Shown here in pieces: positions 5,179 to 64,000 of a DNA stretch of 64,000 nt. This stretch comes from a virus. Positions within the stretch are counted from its first letter, which is position 1; every line of letters starts with the position of its first letter. Location: the IMG/VR virus record IMGVR_UViG_3300012209_000006, positions 28,833-92,832 of that record, one strand, 5' to 3'. A program made the position numbers and the translations under genes. The notes under the pieces are model-generated. The model did not search any database. It was not told where the DNA came from and saw only the letters and a list, made by a program, of their open reading frames with translations.

Positions 5179-5741
5179 TGTTGGTTCGATGCAAGACTCA
5201 AGATTGCCCCCACGCAATAACTTTACCCGATGATCGGGCATCAAAAAGTTCTGTTTATGTTTGCTCGGAATGTTCTCGAATTGATTCCTCCGAGGATCTT
5301 CTTCATTTTCAGAATTATGCATTTGATCCGGAGCTAGGAACGCGCAAAACCCCTCGGCGAGGAGAAGTAGAAGCGCACAACGCCATAAACGGAAAAGGAT
5401 CTCATTTTAGTCGGAAGAGCTCGGGTTTTTCTGTCATACAAGTAAAGAAAGAAAATAGAACAACGCCAACACCCGAATGGGCCAAAACGAATGAAGGCAT
5501 TCAAAAAATTTTATTAACAGCTTTTCCGAAACTTCATGTTAACGCTTTGCAACGAAAACGGGCCGGTAGATGGGCACAAATCATTCAATTGTATTTTCGC
5601 GAAGGTTTGGTTTTTTCGGTGGTTGCCGAGGAATTGTTAGAGAAACCAAGAGCAATAGAGATGGTAATTCGTAGCATAATCTGGACATCAAAAGGTATGC
5701 GGGCTAACGGATCAGGGCCAAGAACCAGAATCGTGACGTAG
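5178..5741 (+). CDS. Hypothetical protein with N-terminal zinc-ribbon-like cysteines
   Basis: 187 aa, not recognised. The N-terminus has CKTQDCPH and CSECSR, spaced like a small zinc ribbon. The C-terminal 90 residues are mostly helical by composition (AQIIQLYFREGLVFSVVAEE) and could be a DNA-binding helix-turn-helix, but that is weak. Start ATG overlaps the previous TAA and follows GAGGAGG. Its last three codons (GTG ACG TAG) belong to the 31-bp repeat, so gene end and promoter-like repeat overlap. Confidence 0.7.
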   Translation: MLVRCKTQDCPHAITLPDDRASKSSVYVCSECSRIDSSEDLLHFQNYAFDPELGTRKTPRRGEVEAHNAINGKGSHFSRKSSGFSVIQVKKENRTTPTPEWAKTNEGIQKILLTAFPKLHVNALQRKRAGRWAQIIQLYFREGLVFSVVAEELLEKPRAIEMVIRSIIWTSKGMRANGSGPRTRIVT

Positions 5742-5762
5742 TTTTAAAGACATAATGGAGGG
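5732..5762 (+). promoter_or_regulatory. 31-bp perfect repeat, copy 1: putative phage promoter
   Basis: Bases 5732-5762 are identical to 8559-8589. The core reads TAGTTTTAAAGACATAAT followed by GGAGGG. There is no -35 box at sigma70 spacing. A long invariant block ending in an AT stretch then GGAGGG looks like promoters of T7-type single-subunit RNA polymerases, with initiation on the G run. No such polymerase gene is in this window, so the reading is inference. Copy 1 leads straight into a base-paired leader (5757-5826). Confidence 0.5.
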
Positions 5763-8558: not shown

Positions 8559-8589
8559 CGTGACGTAGTTTTAAAGACATAATGGAGGG
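8559..8589 (+). promoter_or_regulatory. 31-bp perfect repeat, copy 2: putative phage promoter
   Basis: Identical to 5732-5762, in an intergenic gap after the endolysin gene. The upstream 80 bases are very A/T rich (TAATATTATA, TTTTTGTTACA). The GGAGGG end also forms the ribosome site for the GTG at 8593, so transcripts starting there would have a very short leader. It would drive the zinc-ribbon, holin-like and packaging genes. Confidence 0.5.
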
Positions 8590-8592
8590 GAA

Positions 8593-8760
8593 GTGCGATA
8601 CATCTATCGTTGTGCCCAATGTGATGGGTCTGTTTCTAAGCCGTCCGTGTCTTCTGATAAGGAAGGCAAGTCAACCCATGGTCTCCACGGGTGGAAATGC
8701 GCTACCCACGGCCCGACGAAAGTCAAACGCTCTCTCGTCAAAGACGAAGAAAAAACTTAA
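8593..8760 (+). CDS. Small zinc-ribbon protein (55 aa)
   Basis: Starts GTG at 8593, four bases after GGAGG, and ends TAA at 8758-8760 overlapping the next ATG. The protein begins VRYIYRCAQCDG and later has WKCATHG, giving a C-x2-C plus C-x2-H metal-binding pattern like FmdB-type zinc ribbons. A longer ORF in another frame from 8582 covers the same bases but has no such motif. Function unknown. Confidence 0.6.
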   Translation: MRYIYRCAQCDGSVSKPSVSSDKEGKSTHGLHGWKCATHGPTKVKRSLVKDEEKT

Positions 8761-9302
8761 TGGATCGCGTTTGTAAAACGTGTGGCTTAGAAAAGCCTGA
8801 AGTAAGTTTAACAGCAAAGAAGCGGAGACTTTTGTGTTTTTCGTGTGAATATAAGAGCTCGGACAAAAAGAAAGCAAAAGCACGAAACAAAATCTGGAGA
8901 GACAATCAACCAGGAAGTTTTGATCTTCCAGGAAGATATGGAATAACACAGGACGACTACTTGTATATGTTGGAAAAACAAGGAGGAGTTTGTGCTATTT
9001 GTGGTAAGAAAAATAAAGCGACTAGCCGAAGAAAAAGACTTCATGTAGATCATGATCATAAAATTGGCGGCGCGGGAATTCGTGGTTTGTTGTGTAACTT
9101 ATGTAATGCATGGCTCGGGCGCATTGAAGACAACATCGAAGCCGTTTTGAGAGCTTTTGCTTACCTCAGGAGAATGCAATGCCCGTATATGAGTACCTTT
9201 GTGCATCTTGTGGAAAAAAGTTTGATAGAGTCAAATCTATCAAAATCTCTGATCGGCAGCGGGATTACGATATCTGCGCCTGCGGAAAAAGAGCTGAATT
9301 AA
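8760..9302 (+). CDS. HNH homing-type endonuclease, endonuclease VII family
   Basis: 180 aa. An N-terminal zinc motif (CKTCGL, LLCFSC) is followed by YGITQDDYLYMLEKQGGVC, AICGKK, LHVDHDHK and IRGLLCNLCNAWLG, the same core as the 222 gene. Start ATG overlaps the previous TAA. Its last 124 bases overlap the FmdB-type gene at 9179 in another frame; the nuclease is closed by the downstream gene rather than by its own end. The codon use is A/T rich compared with virion genes. Confidence 0.87.
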   Translation: MDRVCKTCGLEKPEVSLTAKKRRLLCFSCEYKSSDKKKAKARNKIWRDNQPGSFDLPGRYGITQDDYLYMLEKQGGVCAICGKKNKATSRRKRLHVDHDHKIGGAGIRGLLCNLCNAWLGRIEDNIEAVLRAFAYLRRMQCPYMSTFVHLVEKSLIESNLSKSLIGSGITISAPAEKELN

Positions 9303-18828: not shown

Positions 18829-20720
18829 ATGTCTCTTGGATTTCCTGCTTCAAACGTCACCGGCAATTTGCCGCAGTCGACGGTCAAGTTCTATGACAAG
18901 CAATTCGTCGAGAACTTGAAGGCTGAGACGCCTTTCGTGCGTTGCGCGGAACGGCGTGATCTGCCTCTAAACAGCGGTAACCAGCTCGTGTTGTTCGAAT
19001 ACAACACGTTCGGTGCCAACACTTCACAAGCGACGGAAGGGACCCCGGGCGCAGGCATCATCGCCTCGCTCGTTTCCAACACGTCCACGATCGGTGAGTA
19101 CGCTGACTACGCTTCGTTCTCGAGTCTTGCTTTGGCAACCGCCATCGATGACACTCTTGCCAACGTCGCGAAGGAATTGTCTTACCGACTGGGCCAGTCT
19201 CTTTCGAACCTCGTTCGCTACAGCGTTGACGGCGCGTCCGCCATCGACTCGAACGTTCTCGTGCAGTTGGCAGCGGCTTCGAGCTCCAGCTTCACCTCCT
19301 TGTCCATCGGCACTATCCGCGCCGCGATTCAGTCTCTCGCCGGCCGTTCCGTGAAGCCTTTCATGGAAGCGAAAAAGCGGTTTGCCGGGATTAACAATTA
19401 CGCTATCGCGGCGTAACGGTCCCGGATCAACAATTTGACTATATCCGTTAACCTCTGCTATAATGGCAGACGAGACGGAGGGAAGAACCAATGAAAGTTT
19501 CTAATTGGCCGTATCTGGCCGGATTGATTGACGGCGAAGGTTGCCTTTCAATTTCTAAGCAAGTGAACAACTATCATAACAAAGGTCGTAATGATTACAT
19601 TCAATACGGCTTTCGTTTAAGTATAACGAACACTAGTTTAGAGTTGATGAAATATTTGATTGAACATTTTGGCGGCGTCTACTACACAAAGAGAACCAAC
19701 AGTGATAACTGGTGGAAAACTTCGTATGAGTGGAGGCCGAAAGGTAAGAACAACAACGAACGAGTTTTGTTGGCTGTTATTCCTTACATGGTAGTAAAAC
19801 GAGAGCAAGCTAAACTGGCTTTGCTTTATGTTAGACTTCCGGAACAAGATCCTGATAGCAGAGAAAAGCTATTTAATCAAATGCGACTCCTCAATCGAAA
19901 AGGTTCACCCCCAACGACTAATACGTCAAACGTTTCTACTGAAACGAAGATAGAGTCTGATCTCACGAGCGATCGTGAGTGTGCCCCTGTAGTGATACAG
20001 GACGCCTAAACACAAATACGTACACCCCTTCGCATGGGGCGACGCGATTAACGACACCTCTAACAACAGCCCGATCGATGTGCTCAAGCACACCTCTGAA
20101 GGCCTGATGCGAATGGAAGAGCTGCCTTCTGCCGACCTCACGGAAGTTTTCGAACTCCCGGGAACCGGCGTTGATTTCTTCCAGACGAATCTCGTCACCC
20201 AGACGTCGAACTATAAGACGACTGGCGCGACGGCTCTCCGTACCTACATCTTCGGTCGCGATGGCGTCATTGCTATCAACCTCGCGGGCCGCGGAGACAC
20301 AGCGTACGGCGACGGGAATTACCGCGGAATCAAATGCAACGTAGTCCAGAACGCGCCAATTAGCGTTTCGGATCCCGAAGGTTTGATCCCAGGATGGACC
20401 TCCTTGAAAAAAGCGGCTTGACCGCTTTATGGGGTGCCTCGACGAAAGTCGAATAGCACTAATCTTCTCTGATTGACTTGAACCCTGAAACGGGAACAAG
20501 GGGCAAGCGAAAGCAGCCTGAGAGACTAAGTGAGAAGACGGCCTTAGGGCCGAAGCGATAGTCCGATCTCATGTAAATAGAAAGCATGAGACGAGAACAG
20601 AAATGATTCTCGCAGACGAAAGTCTGGTAACAGTATGATAAAGTCCATTTCACGGTCACCCTTCCTCCTGATCCCACACAGCGCGTCCGCCTCATCGACG
20701 CTCTGTCCGGCATCAGCTAA
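18829..20720 (+). CDS. Major capsid protein, N4 gp56-like, split by two group I introns
   Basis: Three exons, proposed 18829-19347, 20005-20404 and 20638-20720, joining to about 333 aa. Exon 1 has capsid-like NSGNQLVLFEYNTF, TSQATEGTPGAG and STIGEYADYASFSS as in N4 gp56-family capsids. Exon 2 begins PKHKYVHPFAWGD and ends GLIPGWTS; exon 3 gives YKVHFTVTLPPDPTQRVRLI and DALSGIS. Reading exon 1 or 2 onward meets stop codons at 19414 and 20419. Intron 2 borders rest on P1 and P10 pairing and frame; the intron 1 3' border could be 20001 instead of 20004 (one extra Thr). Confidence 0.82.
19348..20004 (+). ncRNA. Group I intron 1 in capsid gene, with LAGLIDADG ORF
   Basis: Self-splicing intron of about 657 nt. 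P1: exon GGCCGT (19342-19347) with GCGGTT (19377-19382), placing a U-G wobble at the splice site. P2: CCGGGA/TCCCGG. P3: TTTGAC (19434-19439) with GTCAAA (19925-19930). P4/P5: CCGTT..GACGG enclosing CTGC/GCAG. P7: GACT (19916-19919) with AGTC (19954-19957). P8: CGTTTC-tact-GAAACG. P9: CTCACG/CGTGAG, and a last hairpin CCTGTA/TACAGG before the 3' end. The endonuclease ORF fills the P6-P7 space and runs through the 3' core. Confidence 0.83.
19435..19464 (+). promoter_or_regulatory. sigma70-type promoter inside intron 1
   Basis: TTGACT (19435-19440), an 18-base spacer and TATAAT (19459-19464) lie 27 bases before the LAGLIDADG start codon. The -35 box overlaps the P3 strand and the -10 box lies in the P5 loop, so the same bases serve transcription of the endonuclease and folding of the ribozyme. 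Confidence 0.6.
19491..20009 (+). CDS. LAGLIDADG homing endonuclease, intron-encoded
   Basis: 172 aa. PYLAGLIDGEGCLSIS (residues 7-22) is the defining motif, with the catalytic acidic residue in GEG. Only one copy is visible, so it should act as a homodimer. The rest fits the family: SNTSLELMKYLIEHFGG-like region, WRPKGKNNNERVLLAVIPYM. It starts ATG 19491 after GGAGGG. Its final 30 codons also form the P7-P3-P8-P9 part of the intron, and its stop (20007-20009) lies just past the proposed 3' splice site. It would cut intronless capsid genes to spread the intron. Confidence 0.88.
   Translation: MKVSNWPYLAGLIDGEGCLSISKQVNNYHNKGRNDYIQYGFRLSITNTSLELMKYLIEHFGGVYYTKRTNSDNWWKTSYEWRPKGKNNNERVLLAVIPYMVVKREQAKLALLYVRLPEQDPDSREKLFNQMRLLNRKGSPPTTNTSNVSTETKIESDLTSDRECAPVVIQDA
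20405..20637 (+). ncRNA. Group I intron 2 in capsid gene, no ORF
   Basis: 233-nt group I ribozyme. P1: exon TCCT (20401-20404) with GGGG (20431-20434), U-G at the splice site. P10: CTTTAT (20425-20430) with exon 3 ATAAAG (20638-20643), a perfect 6-bp match. P3: TCTTCTC (20463-20469) with GAGAAGA (20532-20538). P4/P5: CTTG/CAAG enclosing CCC/GGG. P6 with a GAAA loop. P7: GACTA (20524-20528) with TAGTC (20559-20563). P8: CGGCC-tta-GGGCCG. P9-type hairpins TCTCATG/CATGAGA, CGAGAA/TTCTCG and CAGAC-gaaa-GTCTG. All core helices are present. Confidence 0.92.
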
Positions 20721-24522: not shown

Positions 24523-25347
24523 ATGAGCACATACAAAAGCTCTTCGGCACCCGCTTTGTGCGGAACGTGCAATAAGACAGTTTGTAAGCATTTGTTTCCA
24601 GAAAGATTTACAAGTCAAGAAGTCGAGGAAGAGATTATTCCAGAAGTGGTAGAAGAAGATTTTATCCTCGAAGAAGAACGCGTAGACGAGCCGGCTCCGT
24701 ATATCCCTGGAATCAGAGACGCTGTTGCTGTAGCTCCTCAACCTAAAGGTCCTTCTATTGTTTACGGCCCCAAAGGCGACAAAGGAAATACTGGTGCTCC
24801 TGGTCCACGTGGTTTAGTGGGTCCTACAGGTCCCCGCGGCGAACGCGGAGAGCGTGGTCAACAAGGTGAACCCGGTCTTTCTAATATCCCAGGCCCTCAA
24901 GGTCCGACAGGTTTTACCGGCCCCAAAGGCGAGAAGGGGGAGAAAGGAGATACAGGGCCCAAAGGTGAGACTGGTTCGACCGGTCCCCATGGGTTACAAG
25001 GTCTTTCAGGGCGAGACGGTTTCAACGGCGAAAAAGGCGATCCTGGCCCCAAAGGCGAGAAAGGCGATCGTGGAGAACAAGGTCTTAGAGGTTTTCAAGG
25101 CGACCCAGGAAGAGATGGTCGCAACGGCGTAGACGGCAAAGACGGAAAGACGGGAGCTCCCGGACGCGACGGCATAAACGGTCGAGACGGAGAACGAGGC
25201 TCGACTGGTCCGCAAGGTGAGATAGGGCCTCAAGGCCCTACAGGAGTCAGGGGGCCGGCGGGCCCGATCGACGCCGCTATCGACGCGGCTGTCAAGGCTT
25301 CAATCACAGCAGTGCTTCAAGTATTGAAAGAAAAAGGAATTGTTTAG
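24523..25347 (+). CDS. Collagen-like protein
   Basis: 274 aa. Residues 1-75 include CGTCNKTVC and a Glu-rich stretch; from about residue 80 to 250 there are some 50 Gly-X-Y triplets (GPKGDKGNTGAPGPRGLVGP), with one short break at LSNI. The end is a short helix (AIDAAVKASITAVLQVLKEK) that may trimerise the stalk. Such proteins form rigid triple-helical fibre stalks in phages. ATG 24523 is used because AAGGAAG lies upstream; an in-frame ATG at 24478 overlaps the previous gene. Confidence 0.85.
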   Translation: MSTYKSSSAPALCGTCNKTVCKHLFPERFTSQEVEEEIIPEVVEEDFILEEERVDEPAPYIPGIRDAVAVAPQPKGPSIVYGPKGDKGNTGAPGPRGLVGPTGPRGERGERGQQGEPGLSNIPGPQGPTGFTGPKGEKGEKGDTGPKGETGSTGPHGLQGLSGRDGFNGEKGDPGPKGEKGDRGEQGLRGFQGDPGRDGRNGVDGKDGKTGAPGRDGINGRDGERGSTGPQGEIGPQGPTGVRGPAGPIDAAIDAAVKASITAVLQVLKEKGIV

Positions 25348-49530: not shown

Positions 49531-49997
49531 GCTATTTCTCCATTCACCAATTTCTTGAGCTCTTCTTCCGCAGTCGCCTTACCTGCAGACGCCATCGTAA
49601 GCTTGGCCTCTTCACGAAGTAGATCGGACTTGATCCTCTCCACGATCGCTACATACTTAGCGTATTCCATAGTCGCCTTGGCGTAGGCGGCGGCTGCACG
49701 CATAACCTTGGATGCACGAGAATCATCCGTCGGTAGAGCGTCGAAACACACTTCGTGAAATTGCGGCGTCGGATTACTGGTCGAAGTAGGAAAGGTAATG
49801 CCAGAAATGGTTGCTACCGGCGTCCACTTCTCGATGTCTTCTGTATCGACAGGCTCGGGAGTGCTCAGCCCTTCGATGTTTGGCGGAGCCACTATCCGAT
49901 CTTTGGCCTTGTCGGGGTCCGACACAATTCTCTTCGGCTTGGCGAACTGGCAGGCCAAGCAGTCTGTTACACCGTGTGCTTCACATTTGTCTCTCAT
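49527..49997 (-). CDS. Hypothetical protein with N-terminal cysteines
   Basis: 156 aa. CEAHGVTDCLACQF gives a possible metal site; the C-terminal half is an Ala-rich helix (YAKATMEYAKYVAIVERIKS). Overlaps the RNA ligase stop by four bases. Unknown role. Confidence 0.6.
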   Translation of the reverse strand: MRDKCEAHGVTDCLACQFAKPKRIVSDPDKAKDRIVAPPNIEGLSTPEPVDTEDIEKWTPVATISGITFPTSTSNPTPQFHEVCFDALPTDDSRASKVMRAAAAYAKATMEYAKYVAIVERIKSDLLREEAKLTMASAGKATAEEELKKLVNGEIA

Positions 49998-51187
49998 TTG
50001 CTATCCTTTTCCAAGAACGTGTTTGATACTAGCTTAAGCTGGACCCGGCCGATGCTTCGGTCCGTTCTCTCTGGCACTGCCTTGATCACTACGCCTTCTC
50101 GAATGTGCTTGGCTCCCGCGACATTAGATCGCCCTTCTACAAGATTTTTAATCGTATCAAAATCAAACCCGCCATCGCAGACCAGCGGCACCGAGTGGTC
50201 TAGGAGAACGTTGTAGTCGTTGGAGTCATACGAAGTAAACATAGGATCATCTACTTCGACCCACTTACCGTCCGGAGTGCGGACGTCGAACAAGAAGAAT
50301 CTTACCACATCTTTGGTCCCATAGTCAAATCCTTTTTGCGTAGGCACGATCTCGCCGTACAGAGTGTAGCCTGGGTACATACGGCACCAGGGTTCGATCC
50401 ATGTGTTGTCTTTCAGGGCCCGGCGCCACGCGCAGGTAGAGGCCTCGGCCTTCCATAGGTTGCGGGAGCCGGCAAACATCTTGTCCTTGCCGAAGAAGCC
50501 GCCCTTGCGGAAAGTGTATCGAGCGTTGGAGCCATGAATCTTTTCGGTGACCCGCACGCGCTCGCCTGGGACGAAAGCGTTCATGTACTTTTTCAAGTTG
50601 TCCACGTCGTAGGTCGGCACGCCTTCGGGACCGCGGGACTCGCGACGCTCACCGCTGAGCCAACCTTTTATGAAGGAGATCCATCCGCGGAACGAGCGAG
50701 GCAGACCCTTCCTGCCGTTCCCTCCGGTCGCCAGCGTGTAGGCTTCGCCGGGCTCGGGCGGATTATAGTGCTCGATACCTAGGATCTCAGAGACATCGTC
50801 ACCCACCGTGACTTCATCATATTTGTTTTTTCTTACGTCGAGGACGGTCGCGTAGGACTTGGTTACTTGATCTCCGTCAGGCAGAGGCATGAGAACACCT
50901 TCGCTCCATTCGCCGCGAAGCTTCTTGGCTGTGATGCGACGCTTCCTTGCCGGAGTGCCGCCTTCAAATGTGGCGTTGCCCCACAGGAAAGCAAACTCAG
51001 GCCGGTCTGGTACCACGGAGTCGGGCGGCACGTAGTATGCCAGATCTCCAACCTTGAACTGTCCCTTGCCTACGACAGCTTGGAAGCCTTCGATGGGAAT
51101 GATCTCGAGTTTGTCCGCGTTGCCGTGAGGCAACACCTGCTCGATTCGGATTACATCTACACGATGATGCGCTGGTTTATCGTTCAC
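49994..51187 (-). CDS. RNA ligase, Rnl5/DraRnl-like
   Basis: 397 aa from GTG 51187 (after CGGGAG; overlaps the previous TAG). An N-terminal OB-like domain (VIRIEQVLPHGNADKLEIIP; LAYYVPPDSVVPDRPEF) precedes the nucleotidyltransferase domain: motif I EKIHGSNARY with lysine about 216, motif III LYGEIV, motif IV REGVVIKAV and motif V QLKLVSN. The OB-first order is the Deinococcus-type Rnl5 layout. It would join nicked RNA, plausibly repairing tRNAs cut by host defence; that role is inference. Confidence 0.82.
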   Translation of the reverse strand: MNDKPAHHRVDVIRIEQVLPHGNADKLEIIPIEGFQAVVGKGQFKVGDLAYYVPPDSVVPDRPEFAFLWGNATFEGGTPARKRRITAKKLRGEWSEGVLMPLPDGDQVTKSYATVLDVRKNKYDEVTVGDDVSEILGIEHYNPPEPGEAYTLATGGNGRKGLPRSFRGWISFIKGWLSGERRESRGPEGVPTYDVDNLKKYMNAFVPGERVRVTEKIHGSNARYTFRKGGFFGKDKMFAGSRNLWKAEASTCAWRRALKDNTWIEPWCRMYPGYTLYGEIVPTQKGFDYGTKDVVRFFLFDVRTPDGKWVEVDDPMFTSYDSNDYNVLLDHSVPLVCDGGFDFDTIKNLVEGRSNVAGAKHIREGVVIKAVPERTDRSIGRVQLKLVSNTFLEKDSK

Positions 51188-51402
51188 TATTTTCTCCCGC
51201 ATTCTTTTTCGCACCGCATGGCACACATGTTCTCTTCGCTGCACTGCCGCGAGCAAATCTGTTTGTGACAGTGACAGATCTTGCAATCTGGAAGCTGCGA
51301 TTGCTGTGGTTCCTTTTTGCCAGCCACAATAAATAGAGCTCCAATTATAACTAATATCACAAAAAACGTTGCTACTTTGCCGGACTCTTTCTCGCTGTTC
51401 AT
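51187..51402 (-). CDS. Cys-rich membrane protein
   Basis: 71 aa. One membrane helix (ATFFVILVIIGALFIVAG) then a cysteine cluster: CKICHCHKQICSRQCSEENM and CAMRCEKECGRK, nine cysteines in about 35 residues, pointing to a metal or disulfide knot. ATG 51402 follows AAAGGAGAG. Function unknown. Confidence 0.62.
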   Translation of the reverse strand: MNSEKESGKVATFFVILVIIGALFIVAGKKEPQQSQLPDCKICHCHKQICSRQCSEENMCAMRCEKECGRK

Positions 51403-52331
51403 TCGCTCTCCTTTGGAACTTCGAACCCGAGACCGGCGCGCGTAGCCCACTGCCTGCGGAGTGCCACGTTTTCGGCCATCTTCGAATAGCGATCGGTGAT
51501 GGCGGCGCCTGTGTGCCCTACCCAATACCTGAGAATGTCTTCCGGCACTCCGACCTCGCGAAGCTGCGTGATGCGGAATCGTCTAAAGGAATGGAACCCA
51601 TGAATCCCTAGGGGGCCTAAGCTATCAGTCCTGACTCGGCTCTCCCAGAGTGGCTTGCCTGTATTGGTAGCGAATAACAGCTGCCCAATACCTGCTACTC
51701 CTAACTTAAGGGTACACAACATGTTGTTGAGTTTGGGATGCAGATCGATCTCCCGAACCGCGGTTGTCGTCTTGGGCGCCTGCTCCTTACCCTGCCAAAT
51801 GCTCGTACGGACCGATATGACGGCCCGATCTGGATTCCAGGCTGTATGAAGGCCGTCTTCCCCAAAACGCACCGCCAGCGCCTCCCCTATGCGCAGGCCG
51901 GTACCTGCAAGCATCGCGTAGAACTTTGAATACCGTTCGTCCCTCATTGCCGCCTGCAGTCCATCGACCGACACGACCGGCTGGCTCTGCTTACCCATGG
52001 GGGGTAGGTCAATGAAGGTGTTGTTCCATATTTTGGGGAACCGGGGCTGACCGTCTTCGTTCAGGGCAGACAGAACGATCTGCTTGACCAAAATGACGAT
52101 GTTCTTAACTGTCGATGGAGACAAACTCTTGCCAACCAGGACATCCACGAAATCTTTCATGCTCTTGCTGCCAAAACCTTCGAGGCTTTGAGTCCCGATA
52201 GTCGGAGAGATCCAATTCCTAGTCCACGAAGAATACATCCGTATCGTGGCGGGCTTCGCCGGGTTGCGGCGGCGCGTAGCCATCCACTGCAGGAACGTCT
52301 CCGACTGTTCCGCGACTGTCGGGCTTATCAT
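51399..52331 (-). CDS. Tyrosine recombinase / integrase
   Basis: 310 aa. N-terminal SAM-like core-binding domain (about 10-95), then the catalytic domain with Arg147 (GTGLRIGEAL), Lys187, His247-x-x-Arg250 (HSFRRF), His273 (YWVGHTG) and Tyr282 (TDRYSKM): a full catalytic set. It could integrate or resolve DNA. No repressor, excisionase or obvious attP lies next to it. Overlaps both neighbours by four bases. Confidence 0.9.
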   Translation of the reverse strand: MISPTVAEQSETFLQWMATRRRNPAKPATIRMYSSWTRNWISPTIGTQSLEGFGSKSMKDFVDVLVGKSLSPSTVKNIVILVKQIVLSALNEDGQPRFPKIWNNTFIDLPPMGKQSQPVVSVDGLQAAMRDERYSKFYAMLAGTGLRIGEALAVRFGEDGLHTAWNPDRAVISVRTSIWQGKEQAPKTTTAVREIDLHPKLNNMLCTLKLGVAGIGQLLFATNTGKPLWESRVRTDSLGPLGIHGFHSFRRFRITQLREVGVPEDILRYWVGHTGAAITDRYSKMAENVALRRQWATRAGLGFEVPKESE

Positions 52332-57784: not shown

Positions 57785-58104
57785 TTGTTTCCTTTCGGTT
57801 TAGCAAACAACTGCGTGGCCGGGGGCCAAGTCAGAATGTCCGGATCCGAGTGTTCGTTGCCGAGCTCCAACAGAATCAACACCCGAGCATCGGGCACGTA
57901 CTTGTGTTGCCACCCATGCTCGAGCGCTATCTGCTCGAGAGTTGCTCGCGTCTGTGTCCAGGTCTTGCCGGGCTCATACCCATGTGCGTCAAGGACTTGC
58001 TGAATCTGTTTGACGCGTTTCGGGTCTGGCTGCAGCTGCTTAGCCTCCACAGAAAGTGTAGAGGCTAGCAGGAGGAAAGTCAAGATTACTTTAGTACTAT
58101 GCAT
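57781..58104 (-). CDS. Secreted small protein with signal peptide
   Basis: 107 aa. MHSTKVILTFLLLASTLSVE followed by A is a signal peptide. The mature part (KRVKQIQQVLDAHGYEPGKT; LEQIALEHGWQHKYVPDARV) is helical with spaced hydrophobics. It would act in the periplasm; unknown role. Confidence 0.62.
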   Translation of the reverse strand: MHSTKVILTFLLLASTLSVEAKQLQPDPKRVKQIQQVLDAHGYEPGKTWTQTRATLEQIALEHGWQHKYVPDARVLILLELGNEHSDPDILTWPPATQLFAKPKGNK

Positions 58105-58316
58105 GTATCCACGTAGTCTTGAACGTGCTCAAGTTTAACGTCGCGGCCATAATCGCACGAGATGGCGAGATCTTGGATGCCGTCCTGCATGAGGTCAAGC
58201 CCAATACCCAAAGCGTTCTCTATTCCTTTCTCCGCATCCCATCGATCGAGCTGAGCCTGCACAGCTTGCTGCAGATATGGAAGAACCGCGGCTTTCTGCT
58301 TCTTTGTTAGCTTCAT
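58086..58316 (-). CDS. Small hypothetical protein
   Basis: 76 aa from ATG 58316 (after AAGGAGACAGC). MKLTKKQKAAVLPYLQQAVQ, then DGIQDLAISCDYGRDVKLEH. Not recognised. Confidence 0.58.
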   Translation of the reverse strand: MKLTKKQKAAVLPYLQQAVQAQLDRWDAEKGIENALGIGLDLMQDGIQDLAISCDYGRDVKLEHVQDYVDTCIVLK

Positions 58317-58329
58317 GCTGTCTCCTTTT

Positions 58330-58479
58330 TTATTGTCTGTTTCCCGCAAACACAAACACTCCAACGATAAACGCAGTGCAAGCAGCCCAACACCCAAACA
58401 AGCAAATAGCTCCGATTGTTGCGAGCAGGCCGACGAAAGCAAGCACACCAACCCACTCGGGTGTTTCTTCGGTTTTCAT
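58330..58479 (-). CDS. Small membrane protein (49 aa)
   Basis: MKTEETPEWVGVLAFVGLLA then TIGAICLFGCWAACTAFIVG: two closely spaced membrane segments. ATG 58479 overlaps the upstream stop (ATGA), preferred to the longer frame. Unknown. Confidence 0.58.
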   Translation of the reverse strand: MKTEETPEWVGVLAFVGLLATIGAICLFGCWAACTAFIVGVFVFAGNRQ

Positions 58480-58700
58480 GTCGTCTCCGGGTCGTTCACG
58501 ATGCGTGGCTGCGTTACCCGAACCTCGAGCCCTGACGTCAGAACATCGAAGCGCTGCTTGCGGTCTAGACCTTTCCAAAACTCCTTAACTGCTCTACTCA
58601 CCGCGATAGACAAGCTCGTGGCGGTCTTGGTGAAGGATCGGCCAATTCCCGGGCCTTGCCTACGGTCTGTGAAGCTACATCGAACGTTGAATGTTTTCAT
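58476..58700 (-). CDS. Small hypothetical protein
   Basis: 74 aa: MKTFNVRCSFTDRRQGPGIG, SLSIAVSRAVKEFWKGLDRK. Overlaps its neighbour by four bases and the 58675 gene by 26. Not recognised. Confidence 0.56.
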   Translation of the reverse strand: MKTFNVRCSFTDRRQGPGIGRSFTKTATSLSIAVSRAVKEFWKGLDRKQRFDVLTSGLEVRVTQPRIVNDPETT

Positions 58701-58815
58701 TGAGCTCCTTTGCGATATCTTGAGTCATGTTGAGTTCGCAGTGAATGCAGAACCCTGTCAACTTCTCTTCGCCTTCCAGTTCACCTTCACACATAATGCA
58801 GAATTCAGTTTCCAT
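58675..58815 (-). CDS. Small zinc-ribbon protein (46 aa)
   Basis: METEFCIMCEGELEGEEKLT then GFCIHCELNMTQDIAKELNE: CIMC and CIHC make a zinc ribbon. ATG 58815 follows AAAGGAGCAAC and lies inside the end of the 58805 gene. Confidence 0.62.
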   Translation of the reverse strand: METEFCIMCEGELEGEEKLTGFCIHCELNMTQDIAKELNENIQRSM

Positions 58816-58981
58816 GTTGCTCCTTTTGATAGGATATTTGTCCTGCGAGATAACCGCGAGAATATTCCTGCTGAGATTCTGACTCCGAAGAAAAAGAAAC
58901 ACTAGCATATTTATTTGTGCGCCCAAAGGAAGCGTCTACTTTTCCGTTCTTGAAGCCCTGTGCCCAAGCCTCTCTATCCAA
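58805..58981 (-). CDS. Small hypothetical protein (58 aa)
   Basis: Starts at TTG 58981 after AAAGG. MDREAWAQGFKNGKVDASFG, then YSRGYLAGQISYQKEQ. AWxQGFxNG...SRGYLAGQ is typical of a small phage family of unknown role. No ATG is available upstream before an in-frame stop. Confidence 0.55.
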   Translation of the reverse strand: MDREAWAQGFKNGKVDASFGRTNKYASVSFSSESESQQEYSRGYLAGQISYQKEQHGN

Positions 58982-58995
58982 TTGACCTTTCGATT

Positions 58996-59100
58996 GGCGT
59001 GACTTGAACTATAAGCCCGGGTCTCCGCATCTGCCCGAACTTCCGAGCATGCGGTGTATCCATTGCCCTAACTACAGTGTGGCCCTCATGAGTCTCTGGA
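58996..59100 (-). other. tRNA-like / structured element, degenerate
   Basis: Minus strand. CCGCAT/ATGCGG brackets GCTCG-gaagtt-CGGGC, giving a long hairpin, and TAGTTCAAGTC downstream resembles a T-arm. But the T stem and acceptor do not pair and the anticodon loop would be 18-20 nt. It may be a decayed tRNA or another RNA. It fills the gap between the 58805 and 59140 genes. Confidence 0.35.
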
Positions 59101-59139
59101 CTCACCCGACCGCGGTAGAAGTCAATCCTGTAGCGCTGT

Positions 59140-59364
59140 TTAGGCACTTAATAGCTCCTGTTCTGACTCATTAGTTAGGTCAGTCGCTATTTCCGTTAAA
59201 TCCCGAGACAAAATTGCATGCGCGGCAATAACATATGGCCGCATTGTGCAGATAAACTCTTCTGCTTTTTCCTCGGAATCAGCTAAAATAAAATCTCGAA
59301 ACCATCGCTGCTCATCCATCTCATAACTTATAACTAAATATCTACTTTTACTTGCTTTTGACAT
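59140..59364 (-). CDS. Small hypothetical protein
   Basis: 74 aa: MSKASKSRYLVISYEMDEQR, EEKAEEFICTMRPYVIAAHA. Acidic C-terminus. Unknown. Confidence 0.58.
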   Translation of the reverse strand: MSKASKSRYLVISYEMDEQRWFRDFILADSEEKAEEFICTMRPYVIAAHAILSRDLTEIATDLTNESEQELLSA

Positions 59365-59452
59365 TTTGTTCCTCCCTTGCTAGACGTTGTGCGTTCTCTT
59401 CTCGCGTTGGCATAGACAGATATCGTCGTCTCCTATTGGGAAGGGTTTCCCG

Positions 59453-59477
59453 GCAAGCCCCCTCGGTGAAGGGGCTT
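59453..59477 (-). terminator. Hairpin downstream of 59488 gene
   Basis: CAAGCCCC and GGGGCTTG pair perfectly (8 bp) around a nine-base loop, just after the end of the 59488 gene in the leftward direction. No T run follows; could be a weak terminator or processing site. Confidence 0.5.
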
Positions 59478-59487
59478 GACATGAACA

Positions 59488-59757
59488 CTACTGTTTCTTT
59501 CGAAGAACTTCTGTCACGGTCTCCCTGCCGTCCCGCATAGCGCGCTTAATATATGCATACGTGTTAGGCAGGTGGCGTTTGATATACGCGAAGGCTTCGG
59601 GCCTGTTGTCGAAATACTCCTTCACATCTTGCGGTCCTTCGGTTTCGAGCACATCATAATCCACAACTTCGTACTCGATCCCTTTTTGTGGCTGCTCGGC
59701 GTCCAAATCTACCACTGCCTGAACGATACCGCCCTCAACGAATACGACTATGTTCAT
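59488..59757 (-). CDS. Small acidic hypothetical protein
   Basis: 89 aa: MNIVVFVEGGIVQAVVDLDA, VLETEGPQDVKEYFDNRPEA. Seen in phages as unnamed small proteins beginning NIVVFVEGG. Overlaps its neighbour by four bases. Confidence 0.62.
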   Translation of the reverse strand: MNIVVFVEGGIVQAVVDLDAEQPQKGIEYEVVDYDVLETEGPQDVKEYFDNRPEAFAYIKRHLPNTYAYIKRAMRDGRETVTEVLRKKQ

Positions 59758-59969
59758 GCTTCCTCCACTTCTGTAAGCTCTGCGTCAAGATGGTCAAAAC
59801 CGCTGGATTCGTAGCTAACTTCTCCCTTGGCATTCAATTCGAACGCTTGCTTAATTGCGTCCTCTTCGCAGCTTGCTTCCACCTCTACGATTGCCCACAT
59901 TACTGTAGGCAAATTCAAACGAACGTTGTATGGCTTCATGATGCTTTTCCGTGTTAACTTTTTCTTCAT
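59754..59969 (-). CDS. Small hypothetical protein
   Basis: 71 aa from ATG 59969 (AAAGGAGACAGC upstream). MKKKLTRKSIMKPYNVRLNL, VMWAIVEVEASCEEDAIKQA. Beta-helix mix, acidic C-terminus. Unknown. Confidence 0.6.
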   Translation of the reverse strand: MKKKLTRKSIMKPYNVRLNLPTVMWAIVEVEASCEEDAIKQAFELNAKGEVSYESSGFDHLDAELTEVEEA

Positions 59970-60250
59970 GCTGTCTCCTTTGTAAATTCTTCGAACTTGG
60001 TTGCACGAATATGATCGCAAGCTTTCTGAGCTTGGCTGATTGCACTAATCAACATCATTGCCAGCGGTGGGCCCACCAGCAAACCGCTAACACCACGTAC
60101 AGCGATAGCGTCGAACGCTTCTGGGCCCCAAAGAAGACCCATTCTGTCCAGAGCTATTTGAGCTTTCGACAGCGTTAGTTTCAAACGCTCAGGACGAATC
60201 AGGTCATGCAGATATCCTACATGGTCGAAATCAGGTTGGTACTGTTCCAT
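59966..60250 (-). CDS. Hypothetical protein
   Basis: 94 aa from ATG 60250. MEQYQPDFDHVGYLHDLIRP, LLWGPEAFDAIAVRGVSGLL. GAAAGGAGTACAAGC precedes it. First gene downstream of intercistronic element copy a, 105 bases away. Unknown. Confidence 0.6.
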   Translation of the reverse strand: MEQYQPDFDHVGYLHDLIRPERLKLTLSKAQIALDRMGLLWGPEAFDAIAVRGVSGLLVGPPLAMMLISAISQAQKACDHIRATKFEEFTKETA

Positions 60251-60354
60251 GCTTGTACTCCTTTCTCGAATTTTGGGAATACACTCTCCGCGCATTCGTC
60301 TAGCCTAGAGAAATTCTTCTCTTGCGCCACTGGTACTAGCCAAGCCCTTGACAG

Positions 60355-60402
60355 AGTGTATCCCGTTGGGCTCACTCAAAGAATGAGCCCTAGCGAAACA
60401 CT
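60355..60402 (-). promoter_or_regulatory. Intercistronic element, copy a
   Basis: Minus strand: AGTGTTTCGCTA, hairpin GGGCTCA/TGAGCCC, then GGGATACACT. It begins at the TGA of the 60402 gene. The AGTGT end can pair with ACACT. A further match GGGAATACACTCT (plus 60275-60287) can pair with the 3' half of this copy (AGAGTGTATCCC, plus 60353-60364), giving an alternative long hairpin. Confidence 0.75.
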
Positions 60403-60914
60403 CAGCCTTTATGCTCTACATTTTCGAAAGCTTTGGAGATTGCGCGGCTGCGGAACCCGTAGGCCAGTAACTCAGTCCGCAGTTCTGCAAGCTGATTATT
60501 TTCTTCTTCTTTGATGTAGCCTTCTTCGGAATCTGACTCAATTCCCCAAAGTCCGCCGGAGTGAATCTTCTGAACAACCTGAGTCTTTGGGTTCCACACT
60601 TCGGCTTCGGCGACTACACCAATAAAACACCAGTCTCCGCGATTGAGAGACTCCATGCGTTCATAGTCTTGACGGACATACTTGCGGACTTGCTCTGCGG
60701 TATACTCCGGCAGGACTTGGCCGTTGTTGTCTACGTAGTTAAAGCTCGGATTGAAATAGCGGTACTCGTTTCGCCCTATCGCCGAGTCACGATAGATAGA
60801 GAACTCGGAAGTAGACCGTTGACTATACTCCCCGAGCCACGATGTGTCGGGAGATTCGTCGATCATTCTTTTAATTGTGATTTTCAGGATGCGTTTACCA
60901 GTTCGCTTTTTCAT
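60402..60914 (-). CDS. Hypothetical protein
   Basis: 170 aa: MKKRTGKRILKITIKRMIDE, YTAEQVRKYVRQDYERMESL, GLWGIESDSEEGYIKEEENN. Looks like a small phage protein family with a GLWGIESD patch; function unknown. Preceded by element copy b and ending in copy a. Confidence 0.65.
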   Translation of the reverse strand: MKKRTGKRILKITIKRMIDESPDTSWLGEYSQRSTSEFSIYRDSAIGRNEYRYFNPSFNYVDNNGQVLPEYTAEQVRKYVRQDYERMESLNRGDWCFIGVVAEAEVWNPKTQVVQKIHSGGLWGIESDSEEGYIKEEENNQLAELRTELLAYGFRSRAISKAFENVEHKG

Positions 60915-60940
60915 GGTTACGTCTTTCCTCTTTTTCTGGG

Positions 60941-60985
60941 AGTGTATCCCATTGGGCTCACCAAGATGAGCCCTAGCGAAACACT
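60941..60985 (-). promoter_or_regulatory. Intercistronic element, copy b
   Basis: Minus strand: AGTGTTTCGCTA, GGGCTCA-6-TGAGCCC, AATGGGATACACT, then CCCA. Starts one base after the first base of the TAG of the 60984 gene, ends 26 bases before the 60914 start. GGGA...TCCC can form a local hairpin that competes with AGTGT/ACACT. Confidence 0.78.
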
Positions 60986-61133
60986 ATCGTTTTGGTTGTG
61001 GCGCGTGAACAACGTTGTAGCAAGCTGTCCCTTCTCCACCACAATTTAAGCATTGTCCGCCTTTGGGCCCCCACGTAATATCGGACGTTGTACACGGTCT
61101 AGGGGGAATACATAACTTTTCTAGTTTTTCCAT
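60984..61133 (-). CDS. Small Cys protein (49 aa)
   Basis: MEKLEKLCIPPRPCTTSDIT then WGPKGGQCLNCGGEGTACYN. CLNC plus another two cysteines suggest a metal site. The AAGGAG in the end of the upstream gene serves as ribosome site (AAGGAGTAGTGTATG). Confidence 0.58.
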   Translation of the reverse strand: MEKLEKLCIPPRPCTTSDITWGPKGGQCLNCGGEGTACYNVVHAPQPKR

Positions 61134-61136
61134 ACA

Positions 61137-61388
61137 CTACTCCTTTCCAAAAAGTTGAAGAACAGCATCGTAGGCGTCCAACATTGCGTCCAAGTGCGAA
61201 GCGTAATCTTCAAACGGACCTGCAGGGTAGCCGTTGGATGCTGTAGCTTCTAATGCATCTAATTGACTCTCTATCTCTACTGCATCGTCGCCTTGCAAGT
61301 AAACGTTAGCCCTATCGTGCAACCGAACAATCAGAGCATTGCCGAATCTGTCTGTTTGCACTCTGTACTTGTGTCCTGTTCGAACCAT
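61137..61388 (-). CDS. Hypothetical protein
   Basis: 83 aa from ATG 61388. MVRTGHKYRVQTDRFGNALI, DAVEIESQLDALEATASNGY, ending LQLFGKE. Preceded by GGAAAGGAGTAGTGTA, the same block that ends it, so this gene is flanked by matching junctions. Confidence 0.6.
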   Translation of the reverse strand: MVRTGHKYRVQTDRFGNALIVRLHDRANVYLQGDDAVEIESQLDALEATASNGYPAGPFEDYASHLDAMLDAYDAVLQLFGKE

Positions 61389-61392
61389 TACA

Positions 61393-61539
61393 CTACTCCT
61401 TTCCAGCGTAGAAACACTGCGAATCAACGAAAGCTTTGTCAAACCGAGCCCTACTCGGCGGCCAAGCTAACACTCTCAAAACTGTGAGCGCTAGGCTTGG
61501 ACGCTGCATGAGCAACAAAAACATGGTGAGTGTTCGCAT
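61393..61539 (-). CDS. Small hypothetical protein (48 aa)
   Basis: MRTLTMFLLLMQRPSLALTV, then WPPSRARFDKAFVDSQCFYA ending GKE. ATG 61539 follows GAAGGGGAAGTGT. Ends with GGAAAGGAGTAG like the 61137 gene. Hydrophobic N-terminus. Moderate confidence because short. Confidence 0.45.
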   Translation of the reverse strand: MRTLTMFLLLMQRPSLALTVLRVLAWPPSRARFDKAFVDSQCFYAGKE

Positions 61540-61581
61540 ACACTTCCCCTTCTATCCTGTTGAATGGCGCAGGGTGCCCCA

Positions 61582-61881
61582 TTAGTACCAGCAATGCGGC
61601 CACAAACCCCAATCACCTTGCTCGCTACGTCCCCAAGAATGCTCTGCTACAGGGTACGTTTCGTTCATGAAATCATCAGCTTCATCTTCCATTTCGTTTG
61701 CAAACTCATATCCTGCAAGAGATTCAGGCAGCGGATTCTGCGGATCATCATCTTGTACGTCGAAACCGTGTGATTCGCAGAATTCTATGATAGCGTCAAC
61801 GGCGTAGACGCCGCGTGCGCCATCAACGTAGCAGCCTGCATCCTTGGCAGAATACGATGGCGTTTGTTTTGTGAATGCCAT
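61582..61881 (-). CDS. Acidic hypothetical protein
   Basis: 99 aa: MAFTKQTPSYSAKDAGCYVD, ANEMEDEADDFMNETYPVAE, ending WGLWPHCWY. Pattern (GxYVDxARGxY...WG..E.GDWGLWP) is seen in unnamed phage proteins. Preceded by element copy c. Confidence 0.65.
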   Translation of the reverse strand: MAFTKQTPSYSAKDAGCYVDGARGVYAVDAIIEFCESHGFDVQDDDPQNPLPESLAGYEFANEMEDEADDFMNETYPVAEHSWGRSEQGDWGLWPHCWY

Positions 61882-61900
61882 GAGTATTCTCCTGAGGCAA

Positions 61901-61950
61901 AGTGTGCCCCACTGTGCTCATAGTTGTGGTATGAGCACTAGCGATACACT
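61901..61950 (-). promoter_or_regulatory. Intercistronic element, copy c
   Basis: Minus strand: AGTGTATCGCTA, hairpin GTGCTCATA/TATGAGCAC (9 bp) with a 7-base loop, then CAGTGGGGCACACT. Starts directly after the TAA of the 61951 gene and ends 19 bases before the 61881 start. The stem differs from copies a/b in both arms but pairing is kept. Confidence 0.78.
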
Positions 61951-62115
61951 TTATTCTCCGATTGAGTCTTTGCCTTGCTCTGCCGGATTCAGGCCCGGCT
62001 CTGCTTGTGGAACATCGGGCAGCGCATCATAGTCTAACACGCGCCATGCACCGGAGGGTGACACGATGTAGTTTCTATCTGAGGCTTGAATGATTGTGCC
62101 CACTGGATATTGCAT
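61951..62115 (-). CDS. Small hypothetical protein (54 aa)
   Basis: MQYPVGTIIQASDRNYIVSP, SGAWRVLDYDALPDVPQAEP. ATG 62115 follows AAAGGAGATTCT. A longer frame upstream overlaps element copy d and is not used. Unknown. Confidence 0.6.
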   Translation of the reverse strand: MQYPVGTIIQASDRNYIVSPSGAWRVLDYDALPDVPQAEPGLNPAEQGKDSIGE

Positions 62116-62131
62116 AGAATCTCCTTTGGGG

Positions 62132-62194
62132 AGTGTATCCCATAATGCCCACTGCAAGCGGTAAGCGGTAAGCAGTGAGCAGCAGCGAAACACT
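62132..62194 (-). promoter_or_regulatory. Intercistronic element, copy d (long stem)
   Basis: Minus strand: AGTGTTTCGCTG, arms GCTCACTGC and GCAGTGGGC (one mismatch) around a longer loop with GCTTACC repeats, then TATGGGATACACT. Begins one base after the TAA of the 62196 gene; ends 16 bases before the 62115 start. Confidence 0.74.
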
Positions 62195-62195
62195 C

Positions 62196-62381
62196 TTACT
62201 CGAATCCTGGCCCGTTGATTGTGGTAATCCAACGTTCTCGTCTAGCTTTGGACTTCAGTTGCGTCTTGAGCCGTGCTCCTAGATACCAGTTACGAATAAT
62301 CATGAAAGGAATCGCAAGCTCAAGCAAAAGGAATGCCGTCGTTGCAAAGAAAAACCCATAGTACAGAATGAGTTTTAGCAT
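62196..62381 (-). CDS. Small membrane protein
   Basis: 61 aa from ATG 62381. MLKLILYYGFFFATTAFLLL then ELAIPFMIIRNW: a long hydrophobic stretch (one or two helices), basic tail RLKTQLKSKARRERW. AAAGGATAAC precedes it. Confidence 0.6.
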   Translation of the reverse strand: MLKLILYYGFFFATTAFLLLELAIPFMIIRNWYLGARLKTQLKSKARRERWITTINGPGFE

Positions 62382-62382
62382 G

Positions 62383-62469
62383 TTATCCTTTCTTGGCATC
62401 AATCTTTTCTACCAGTTTATTTTCGATAGACTTGTCCCCGTACATCTTGTTTCGTAGTCGGGCATTCAC
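62383..62469 (-). CDS. Tiny protein (28 aa)
   Basis: MNARLRNKMYGDKSIENKLV then EKIDAKKG. GTG 62469 follows AAGGAG at six bases. It is the first gene after element copy e. Short; moderate confidence from the ribosome site and tight coupling to the 62381 gene. Confidence 0.45.
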   Translation of the reverse strand: MNARLRNKMYGDKSIENKLVEKIDAKKG

Positions 62470-62492
62470 AGTATTCTCCTTCTAAGTTTGGG

Positions 62493-62542
62493 AGTGTATC
62501 CCACTTCGCTCACGATTGTGGCGTGAGCGATAGCGATGCACT
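62493..62542 (-). promoter_or_regulatory. Intercistronic element, copy e
   Basis: Minus strand: AGTGCATCGCTA, hairpin TCGCTCACG/CGTGAGCGA (9 bp) with a 7-base loop sharing CCACAA with copy c, then AGTGGGATACACT and CCC. Starts directly after the TAG of the 62543 gene and ends 23 bases before the 62469 start. Confidence 0.78.
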
Positions 62543-62731
62543 CTACTGGTAGCGTCTTTCCCTCTCCATGTCGGATTCTTCCTCCAAGATGCCTTGTAGA
62601 TATTCCATTTCATCTTCGCAAACAAGGTCTTGCTCGAAAGCTTGCTGCAAAGATTCAATCGCGCGCTGACTACACTCGCCGGCCCTAATCTCAGCCGAGA
62701 TAGCAGCGAACATTTCGGGATGCGTTTTCAT
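62543..62731 (-). CDS. Small acidic hypothetical protein
   Basis: 62 aa from ATG 62731 (GGGAGAGTACC upstream). MKTHPEMFAAISAEIRAGEC, EYLQGILEEESDMERERRYQ. Helical, acidic. A 7-bp hairpin (GAGTTGG/CCAACTC, 62750-62768) lies before it. Confidence 0.6.
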   Translation of the reverse strand: MKTHPEMFAAISAEIRAGECSQRAIESLQQAFEQDLVCEDEMEYLQGILEEESDMERERRYQ

Positions 62732-62782
62732 GGTACTCTCCCTATGCTTGAGTTGGTTCGCCCAACTCGACATGAGCGTAGC

Positions 62783-62923
62783 TTACACTACGCCCATAGC
62801 GTGGTAGGCGATGTAGGAATGGTTCTGGCAGTTCTGGCACGGAGTATTGAGAACTCCAACCAACGTCCTGCTCTTATTCAAGACGTTGGGTGTTGCCCTC
62901 AAGGAGATGCGTTCCCAGTTCAT
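62783..62923 (-). CDS. Small protein with Cys pair (46 aa)
   Basis: MNWERISLRATPNVLNKSRT then LVGVLNTPCQNCQNHSYIAY. C-x2-C plus His could bind metal. No good ribosome site is visible before ATG 62923, so this is tentative. Confidence 0.4.
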   Translation of the reverse strand: MNWERISLRATPNVLNKSRTLVGVLNTPCQNCQNHSYIAYHAMGVV

Positions 62924-62941
62924 GAAGTAAACTGGGCCGGT

Positions 62942-62960
62942 GGCGCTACAATCTAGCGCC
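62942..62960 (-). terminator. Hairpin after 62972 gene
   Basis: GGCGCTA/TAGCGCC (7 bp, extendable by one pair) around a five-base loop, 12 bases after the stop of the 62972 gene in the leftward direction. No T run; may be a processing or stabilising hairpin. Confidence 0.5.
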
Positions 62961-62971
62961 CTAGGCTCAAG

Positions 62972-63256
62972 TTACTTGCTGTCCTGACCTTGGAAAAGCT
63001 TGGAATCGTTGGCGAGAATGAAAGCCTCAAGCTCGCCGCTCTTGACAGTGGCGATAACACGTGCCCACTGCTTTTTAGTCAAGGTGACGGGGAAACGGCC
63101 TAGGCAGTAGTGTGAAATACCACCCTTGGCAGTGACCTTGAGCTTGCTGCCTTCGTTGGCCGCCTTGCGTTCCAGTTCCGCGATACGTGCCTTCAATTCG
63201 TCGTACGTGGGAGCCTTAACCGTATCCGTGACAACAGTAGTAGGTTGAGTATACAT
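62972..63256 (-). CDS. Hypothetical protein, first gene of leftward array
   Basis: 94 aa from ATG 63256 (AGGAAGTACC upstream). MYTQPTTVVTDTVKAPTYDE, helix LKARIAELERKAAN, then ISHYCLGRFPVTLTKKQWAR and a C-terminal FILANDSKLFQ. The VTLTKKQWxRV region resembles small phage proteins of unknown role. Confidence 0.64.
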   Translation of the reverse strand: MYTQPTTVVTDTVKAPTYDELKARIAELERKAANEGSKLKVTAKGGISHYCLGRFPVTLTKKQWARVIATVKSGELEAFILANDSKLFQGQDSK

Positions 63257-64000
63257 GGTACTTCCTTCTGCCCGATAGGGCAATTAGAATTGACGTTCAT
63301 TTTCCAATGTACGTCTTAGAACGGGCAGTCTAGTGGAACTGCCCGCTCGCGTCGTGCATTGTACTGGACATTGCGTTACGTCCTATTCTCACCCGTAGCT
63401 AGGCTACGGCAGTGACAGTTCTTCCCTACTACGTACGGCCTATAGTGCGCGAGTACGCCTCAGTTCTCTGCCTAGGGTTCGCATTTCGCCAACATACTTC
63501 GCTGGCTCCCCTATGTAGAATTGCCTACACTACGCGCGTGTAACAGTCTGGGTCGTCGCCACTCGACAGGCTCGCCGGAGACACTACGCTTCGCAGTGTT
63601 TAGGACTTGGCAAACAGACGGGCTGTGTCCTTCGTCGTTACCCTAGTCAGTGTGTCAGTCTACGCTGTCCCGTCCTACGGTCTCTGTGTCAGGCGATATG
63701 CCCGGCTGGTACCACGGAGCGTATACTCTCTGCTAGAATCCACGAGTTAGCTTCATTGCGCGGCCTAGTTTGCTGTTCGCGGGCTCTTCCGGCTGGCTGC
63801 TTGCCGGTCTTTCTTGCTGCGAACGGCCTTGCATAGTGCATGCGCTTGGCCAAACCGTAACCCGCTGAAAACAAACGATGTAACAAAATTACCCCGACAC
63901 TTTTTGTCTGTTTCATTTTGTTACAAACGGGTGCAAGTCCTTTATTTTCTTACGCGTGCGCGGGTGACCAAAAATGCGGCCATTTGTGACAGTTTTTGGC
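63257..64000. promoter_or_regulatory. Mostly non-coding control region with inverted repeats
   Basis: About 740 bases upstream of the leftward array. It contains CGGGCAGT/ACTGCCCG (63322-63345), an exact 11-bp inverted repeat TGTAACAAAAT (63879-63889) / ATTTTGTTACA (63915-63925), and A/T-rich DNA to the edge. I see no clear sigma70 promoter. A 75-aa minus-strand frame (63689-63916) begins inside the right arm of the inverted repeat but lacks a ribosome site, so I do not call it. The region probably holds early leftward promoters or the operator of a regulator. Confidence 0.5.

Follow-up and report, generated by a model that had tools for sequence, protein, structure and literature searches.

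The window analysed here comprises the last 64 kb of a 92,832-base viral contig from IMG/VR (G000); between window positions 60355 and 62542 a hairpin-forming element occurs five times (copies a-e), within a minus-strand operon of very small genes that have no confident family matches. With a 123-bp direct repeat at its two ends, the contig is probably complete and circular as assembled; a distant relationship links its structural genes to those of Tunturiibacter phage Tunturi_3, with 30% identity for the terminase, 34% for the portal and 65-67% for the major head protein. All five copies reported in an earlier note on this DNA were located on the minus strand, and a covariance-model search of the whole contig recovered exactly these five, each with an E-value of 1e-12 or better; the other matches are weak mirror images on the opposite strand only. 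All five are genuine and go far beyond what chance would give. Their structure is well supported and they are best read as a structured intercistronic RNA element, which, from the comparison of related phages, probably also forms a seam at which gene cassettes are exchanged. The copies and the genes around them are as follows:

60355..60402, minus strand: element copy a; 5' arm AGTGTTTCGCT at 60392-60402 and 3' arm CGGGATACACT at 60355-60365; begins on the TGA of gene 60402-60914
60402..60914, minus strand: 170-aa gene between copies b and a, function without assignment; orthologs in contigs L327 (56% identical) and L336
60941..60985, minus strand: element copy b; shares bases with the TAG of gene 60984-61133; the ATG that follows is at 60914, preceded by a Shine-Dalgarno sequence (SD)
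60984..61133, minus strand: 49-aa gene upstream of copy b, without family match
61137..61388, minus strand: 83-aa gene; orthologs 75-81% identical in contigs G001 and G002; here no element lies directly behind it
61582..61881, minus strand: 99-aa gene downstream of copy c, without family match
61901..61950, minus strand: element copy c; directly follows the TAA of gene 61951-62115; the ATG after it is at 61881
61951..62115, minus strand: 54-aa gene between copies d and c, without family match
62132..62194, minus strand: element copy d, with the longest terminal loop; one base past the TAA of gene 62196-62381; next ATG at 62115
62196..62381, minus strand: 61-aa gene between copies e and d, without family match
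62493..62542, minus strand: element copy e; directly follows the TAG of gene 62543-62731; the start codon after it is GTG at 62469 (28 codons), followed by gene 62196-62381
62543..62731, minus strand: 62-aa gene upstream of copy e, without family match

Structure and position of the element

The element is 45-63 nt long and is found in operons of small accessory phage genes. Its outer stem is GAGTGT/ACACTC, the leading G and trailing C being found in most copies and A and T in their place in copy c; inward of this stem lie a mismatch (in most copies), two pairs, a G-G mismatch, one C-G pair and a small internal loop, followed by an inner stem of 8-10 pairs. The outer stem, the G-G mismatch, the one pair and the internal loop are kept, and the inner stem, like the loop that it carries, varies between copies yet is always paired. 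The sequence frame proposed earlier, two conserved blocks around a variable hairpin, stands overall with small corrections: copy e reads AGTGC, copy a CGGGATACACT and copy c TGGGGCACACT.

The placement behind stop codons that the earlier note described (at or within two bases) was borne out, the upstream stop ending at +1, +2, 0, -1 and 0 relative to the first base of copies a-e; TAA, TAG and TGA all occur before the window copies. The next SD-preceded start lies 26, 19, 16 and 23 bases beyond copies b-e, within the 16-26 bases claimed, and 104 bases beyond copy a. With the further copies described below included, all 12 copies of families A and B have an upstream stop, on the sense strand, whose end falls no more than 6 bases ahead of the element and no more than 2 bases inside it, and an SD-preceded start follows within 38 bases in 11 of them; none of the 12 lies inside coding sequence, all being in gaps between genes and at a stop codon. 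Most copies leave the SD outside the stem; in copies B2 and B3 of contig G002 it is inside the 3' arm.

Further copies in other viral contigs

Family A is defined by the outer box of the window copies; scans of viral contigs found two more, one in G003 (locus L005) and one in G001 (locus L016), the latter with an inner stem that is wholly different in sequence and still paired. The G001 ortholog of the 83-aa gene 61137-61388 lies just upstream of this copy, and a search with the same gene led to G002, where the same junction bears a diverged box, GATTGCCTTGC..CAATC (family B), and where the ortholog is flanked by family B elements. The 83-aa gene is therefore common to three unrelated genomes (G000, G001 and G002) and stands beside elements in two of them. 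Family B has four copies in G002 (B1-B4), each at a stop codon, and one more in G005 (locus L278); with L327, its box is known from three viral genomes. A model built from family A alone and run unfiltered over a 3-kb part of G002 places the four copies of family B at ranks 1, 2, 3 and 6, which argues that A and B are one structural family. The comparison thus covers seven viral contigs, with 12 aligned copies from families A and B, two from a third family (C) and two in L327.

Family C, with the box GTTTGyAGTG..GGGTrCAAAC, is represented by two copies in L336, the first of which lies 11 bases behind the stop of the ortholog of the 170-aa gene 60402-60914. Its plan is that of the other families (G-G mismatch, one pair, 2x2 loop, variable inner stem), and its outer stem has one covarying pair, C-G in one copy and T-A in the other. 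Beside both copies, at L336 position 1612 (plus strand), a stable composite hairpin (-26.0 kcal/mol) lies directly behind a stop and is a possible further variant.

Searches farther afield added little. A relaxed scan for more family A copies gave weak matches only, none convincing, and a candidate in L142 was rejected as it sits inside a terminase gene; a degenerate scan for family B gave one true match, that in L278, among the matches listed. A pattern scan of 84,980 bacterial and archaeal genomes gave chance-like matches only, among the matches listed, and a covariance model (R3) run on 297 Acidobacteriota genomes and four Tunturi phages gave no match, an empty result that is not proof of absence. 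No additional family was found by a stop-anchored repeat search in G001, G003 and Tunturi_3, and no element lies near the other orthologs of the 170-aa gene, in L333, L335 and L337. The earlier statement that no named family has this pattern agrees with Rfam 15, which has no match at gathering score in the window except two tRNAs elsewhere and none even at E<=1 for the 12 copies.

Covariation of both stems

The inner arms had been said to change together, and in the seven same-box copies of family A (plain MAFFT alignment) five of the eight inner pairs show two-sided changes with 97.3% of cells paired, and none of 500 shuffles reaches the covariation score; this control ignores kinship, and several copies share one genome. 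The outer stem was compared across families A and B, again in a plain MAFFT alignment, and has two-sided changes at 5/9 pairs with 94.4% of cells paired (0/500 shuffles) and a covariation score of 0.396 vs 0.221 in shuffles. The joint model alignment of both families, which unlike the two plain alignments is fitted to the structure, gives two-sided changes at 12 of 17 pairs with 97.1% paired. Slid controls are far lower in all three tests. Covariation of both stems across families is strongly supported, and it grew stronger as copies were added.

Gene exchange at the elements

The closely related contigs L327 and G002, which are 92% identical in a gene close by, differ in gene content at the elements. 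The order in G002 is gene X, B1, a 194-aa gene, B2, a 77-aa gene, B3, a 142-aa gene and B4; in L327 it is gene X, a chimeric B1/B2 element, a 170-aa-type gene and B4. The element bodies are nearly identical between the two (54/54 bases in B2, 58/60 in B4) and the genes on both sides differ, which argues that the elements mark cassette boundaries at which genes were exchanged. At the left junction of L327 the upstream flank of B1 is joined to the body of B2 within the shared 11-nt 5' arm. Together, the two elements of L327 enclose the ortholog of the 170-aa window gene that lies between b and a; in L327 this gene is preceded by CACACTCC and followed by TAG-AGTG; these look like remnants of family A arms, mutation being the alternative account. 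The element therefore appears to be a recombination seam for gene cassettes, a reading well supported by the sequence comparison, and among the roles suggested in the earlier note that of a mark of gene cassettes is the best borne out. Recent transfer of the 83-aa gene between phages was considered and is unsupported, as its DNA identity is just 70-77%.

G001 and G002 have 127-bp terminal repeats at their ends and so are probably complete, and neither has a match to a tyrosine or serine recombinase; PF00589 has no match in G001, G002 or G003 and a sub-threshold match in G000. With crossovers at both edges of the element and no recombinase match in G001 or G002, annealing or homologous recombination on short repeats would fit better than a dedicated recombinase.

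The sub-threshold match in G000 is a divergent tyrosine recombinase gene (window 51399-52331, minus strand; Pfam match below cut-off), upstream of the small-gene region in window coordinates, as is an RNA ligase gene (window 49994-51286, minus strand). Several endonuclease VII-like genes are also present in G000, one at window 8691-9302 (plus strand; Pfam PF02945) and others at contig positions 15708-16274, 19866-20660 and 29054-29473, the latter by similarity to the endonuclease VII of Tunturi_3; as enzymes of this type cut branched DNA, a tie to hairpin seams is conceivable.

Comparison with known systems

The closest system in effect is that of the promoter early stem-loop (PeSL) cassettes of T4-type phages, stem-loops between variable-region genes that are implicated in modular shuffling (Arbiol 2010; Comeau 2014, as presented in PMC4503421). 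Both are repeated intergenic stem-loops at which gene modules are exchanged, here between G002 and L327; however, PeSLs as presented there include an early promoter, whereas no promoter-like site overlaps the present elements, which are moreover tied to the upstream stop and have a two-part stem with a variable inner arm. Given the precedent of PeSLs as shuffling stem-loops and the lack of an Rfam match, the element would be a shuffling seam with an undescribed structured RNA.

The SAS and ESAS repeats of cluster K mycobacteriophages (PMC3203893) and cluster EF Microbacterium phages (PMC7302621) share a 13-base GGGATA....CCC motif, inverted repeats and a location between genes in the non-structural genome half; GGGATACACTCCC of the present element is similar to GGGATAGGAGCCC of SAS. 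SAS, however, lies 3-7 bases before start codons at the SD, whereas in the window copies about 12 bases or more separate the end of GGGATACACTCCC from the start codon, and families B and C do not have it. The arms of ESAS (TTGACATGCATACAG..; Anaya ESAS compared directly) have no sequence relation to the present arms; a covariance model (R2) gave no match on the Anaya stretch L162, and the 17-bp ESAS inverted-repeat consensus was not matched. For those repeats the authors saw little to support RNA pairing; for the present element the support is strong.

Integron attC sites, as defined in PMC2727003, have boundary R'' and R' boxes with AAC and GTT. Conserved ends, a variable terminal structure and a position at cassette boundaries are common to both; the present arms (GAGTGT..ACACTC, GATTG..CAATC and GTTTGyA..TrCAAAC) have no such boxes, which excludes attC itself, and the two probably complete genomes have no recombinase match and the breakpoints no one fixed point.

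A further comparison is offered by phage T7, whose RNase III sites are interrupted hairpins located between genes. In size and shape the present hairpin is similar to the T7 RNase III signal R1.1, a substrate cut at one bond to give 47 and 13 nt (PMC4858673); it differs in that its arms are conserved, repeated at several junctions and common to unrelated phages, and its cleavage is putative.

Proposed function and alternatives

The explanation considered best for the present element joins a hairpin that acts on the RNA, by processing or by protecting 3' ends, with a cassette seam; the chance that this joint account is right is put at about even. The roughly 20-bp interrupted duplex would either stop 3' exonucleases or be cut, by RNase III of the host or by a nuclease of the phage, so that each small gene would gain an insulated message end right behind its own stop codon and a swapped-in gene would be expressed independently of its neighbours; the exchange itself may proceed by ordinary or single-strand-annealing recombination on the short repeated sequence. 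Processing or protection is favoured by the interrupted duplex, its place directly behind stops and the freely varying inner arm. Several points weigh against this account: the RNase III or exonuclease part is drawn from shape and position alone; the SD in the 3' arm of B2 and B3 means that a purely processing role fails to explain every copy; the clear seam comes from the one genome pair G002/L327, the event being unpolarised; and there are just 12 well-aligned copies, several from one genome, for which shuffle counts are not probabilities.

Other roles were rejected. The element is not an intrinsic terminator, as it has no U-tract and no copy is among the terminator-like sites, and it is not a promoter, since positions 58000-64000 hold 2 promoter-like sites, fewer than in shuffles, none overlapping an element, by a scan for sigma-70-like consensus from which host promoters may differ. 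Recoding (SECIS, readthrough or bypassing) is rejected because each of TGA, TAG and TAA occurs as the stop and the spacing from stop to start falls in all three phases. The RNA-level roles that remain are processing, 3'-end protection or protein binding.

An RNA-binding regulator, from the phage or the host, that binds the element and so coordinates the small-gene operon would account for the conserved internal loop with its G-G mismatch and for the conserved outer box, both recurring at several genes within one operon; no candidate protein, however, is common to the genomes, G000 sharing almost no genes with G001 and G002 in a whole-contig comparison, and this role is considered unlikely. Similar doubt attaches to a translation-coupled switch, in which the terminating ribosome would open the outer stem (which includes stop bases) and refold the 3' arm to control the next initiation. 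A ribosome at a stop codon has a footprint large enough to cover an 11-nt arm, and the computed position of the 5' arm falls within it; when this arm is blocked, a GGGA/TCCC hairpin is predicted in copies b and e and in those of G001 and G003, and the predicted SD accessibility of B3 goes up from 0.18 to 0.80. Accessibility is barely changed or lowered in the remaining 11 copies, the SD lies outside the stem in most, and the alternative hairpin is absent from copies a and c and from families B and C, which argues against a general switch. The mutually exclusive folds proposed in the earlier note can be drawn for b, d and e, but in wider context the alternative is the predicted lowest-energy fold only in b among the five; the exclusive fold is not conserved, accessibility clearly rises in one of 12 copies, and the translation switch suggested in the note is weakly supported. 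The RNA processing site that the note also suggested is a possible reading, and its interpretation as a whole is partly supported.

At the DNA level, a dedicated recombination site, recognised by a recombinase as folded single-stranded DNA in the manner of attC and having cassette insertion and excision as its main job, would agree with the conserved boundary boxes, the variable terminal structure, the place behind stops, the fixed orientation and the gene exchange, and the window phage does encode the tyrosine recombinase noted above; the missing recombinase match in G001 and G002, the missing AAC/GTT boxes and breakpoints at the 5' arm and also at the 3' edge make it improbable, to the same degree as the two preceding roles. 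A double-stranded DNA operator, as proposed for the mycobacteriophage ESAS repeats, has in its favour the imperfect inverted repeats of the outer arms (AGTGTwTCsCw); the halves differ in a fixed way (TCGCT vs TCCCA), the spacer is a covarying hairpin that duplex binding does not explain, and no sigma-70-like promoter overlaps the elements, so that this reading is very improbable. Somewhat less doubtful than the site, switch and regulator, though still on the unlikely side, is a broader proposal in which the families belong to a widespread, lineage-specific hairpin class with a common fold that serves as a dedicated cassette boundary, both insulating messages and acting as a site of gene trading recognised as a folded structure.

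Other features of the window

The major head protein gene is split between 18829-19416 and 20080-20421 (plus strand), the parts being 65% and 67% identical to the Tunturi_3 protein; the insert holds a LAGLIDADG endonuclease open reading frame (19491-20009) and, at 19768-19979, a match to group I introns below the gathering score (25.6 bits, E 4e-4), so that the capsid gene probably contains a group I intron that carries a homing endonuclease. An exact 31-base repeat, CGTGACGTAGTTTTAAAGACATAATGGAGGG, at 5732-5762 and 8559-8589 (plus strand), with no third copy within 3 mismatches of its last 21 bases, is a possible phage promoter or regulatory site. An inverted repeat, TGTAACAAAA..TTTTGTTACA, at 63879-63925, near the contig end and upstream of the minus-strand operon, is a possible operator; a TGTTACA..TGTAACA stretch is listed in G001. 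Collagen-like Gly-X-Y repeats occur at 24766-25195 (plus strand) in a probable tail or fibre gene.

Significance

Phage genomes are mosaic, yet as a rule one cannot see the seams along which small accessory genes change hands; in this case such a seam is readable, which makes it testable how phages swap small genes without breaking expression and gives a search model for cassette-borne accessory genes in uncultured phages. The element appears to be an unlisted form of punctuation, which may both shape phage messages and mark the points at which genes are exchanged.

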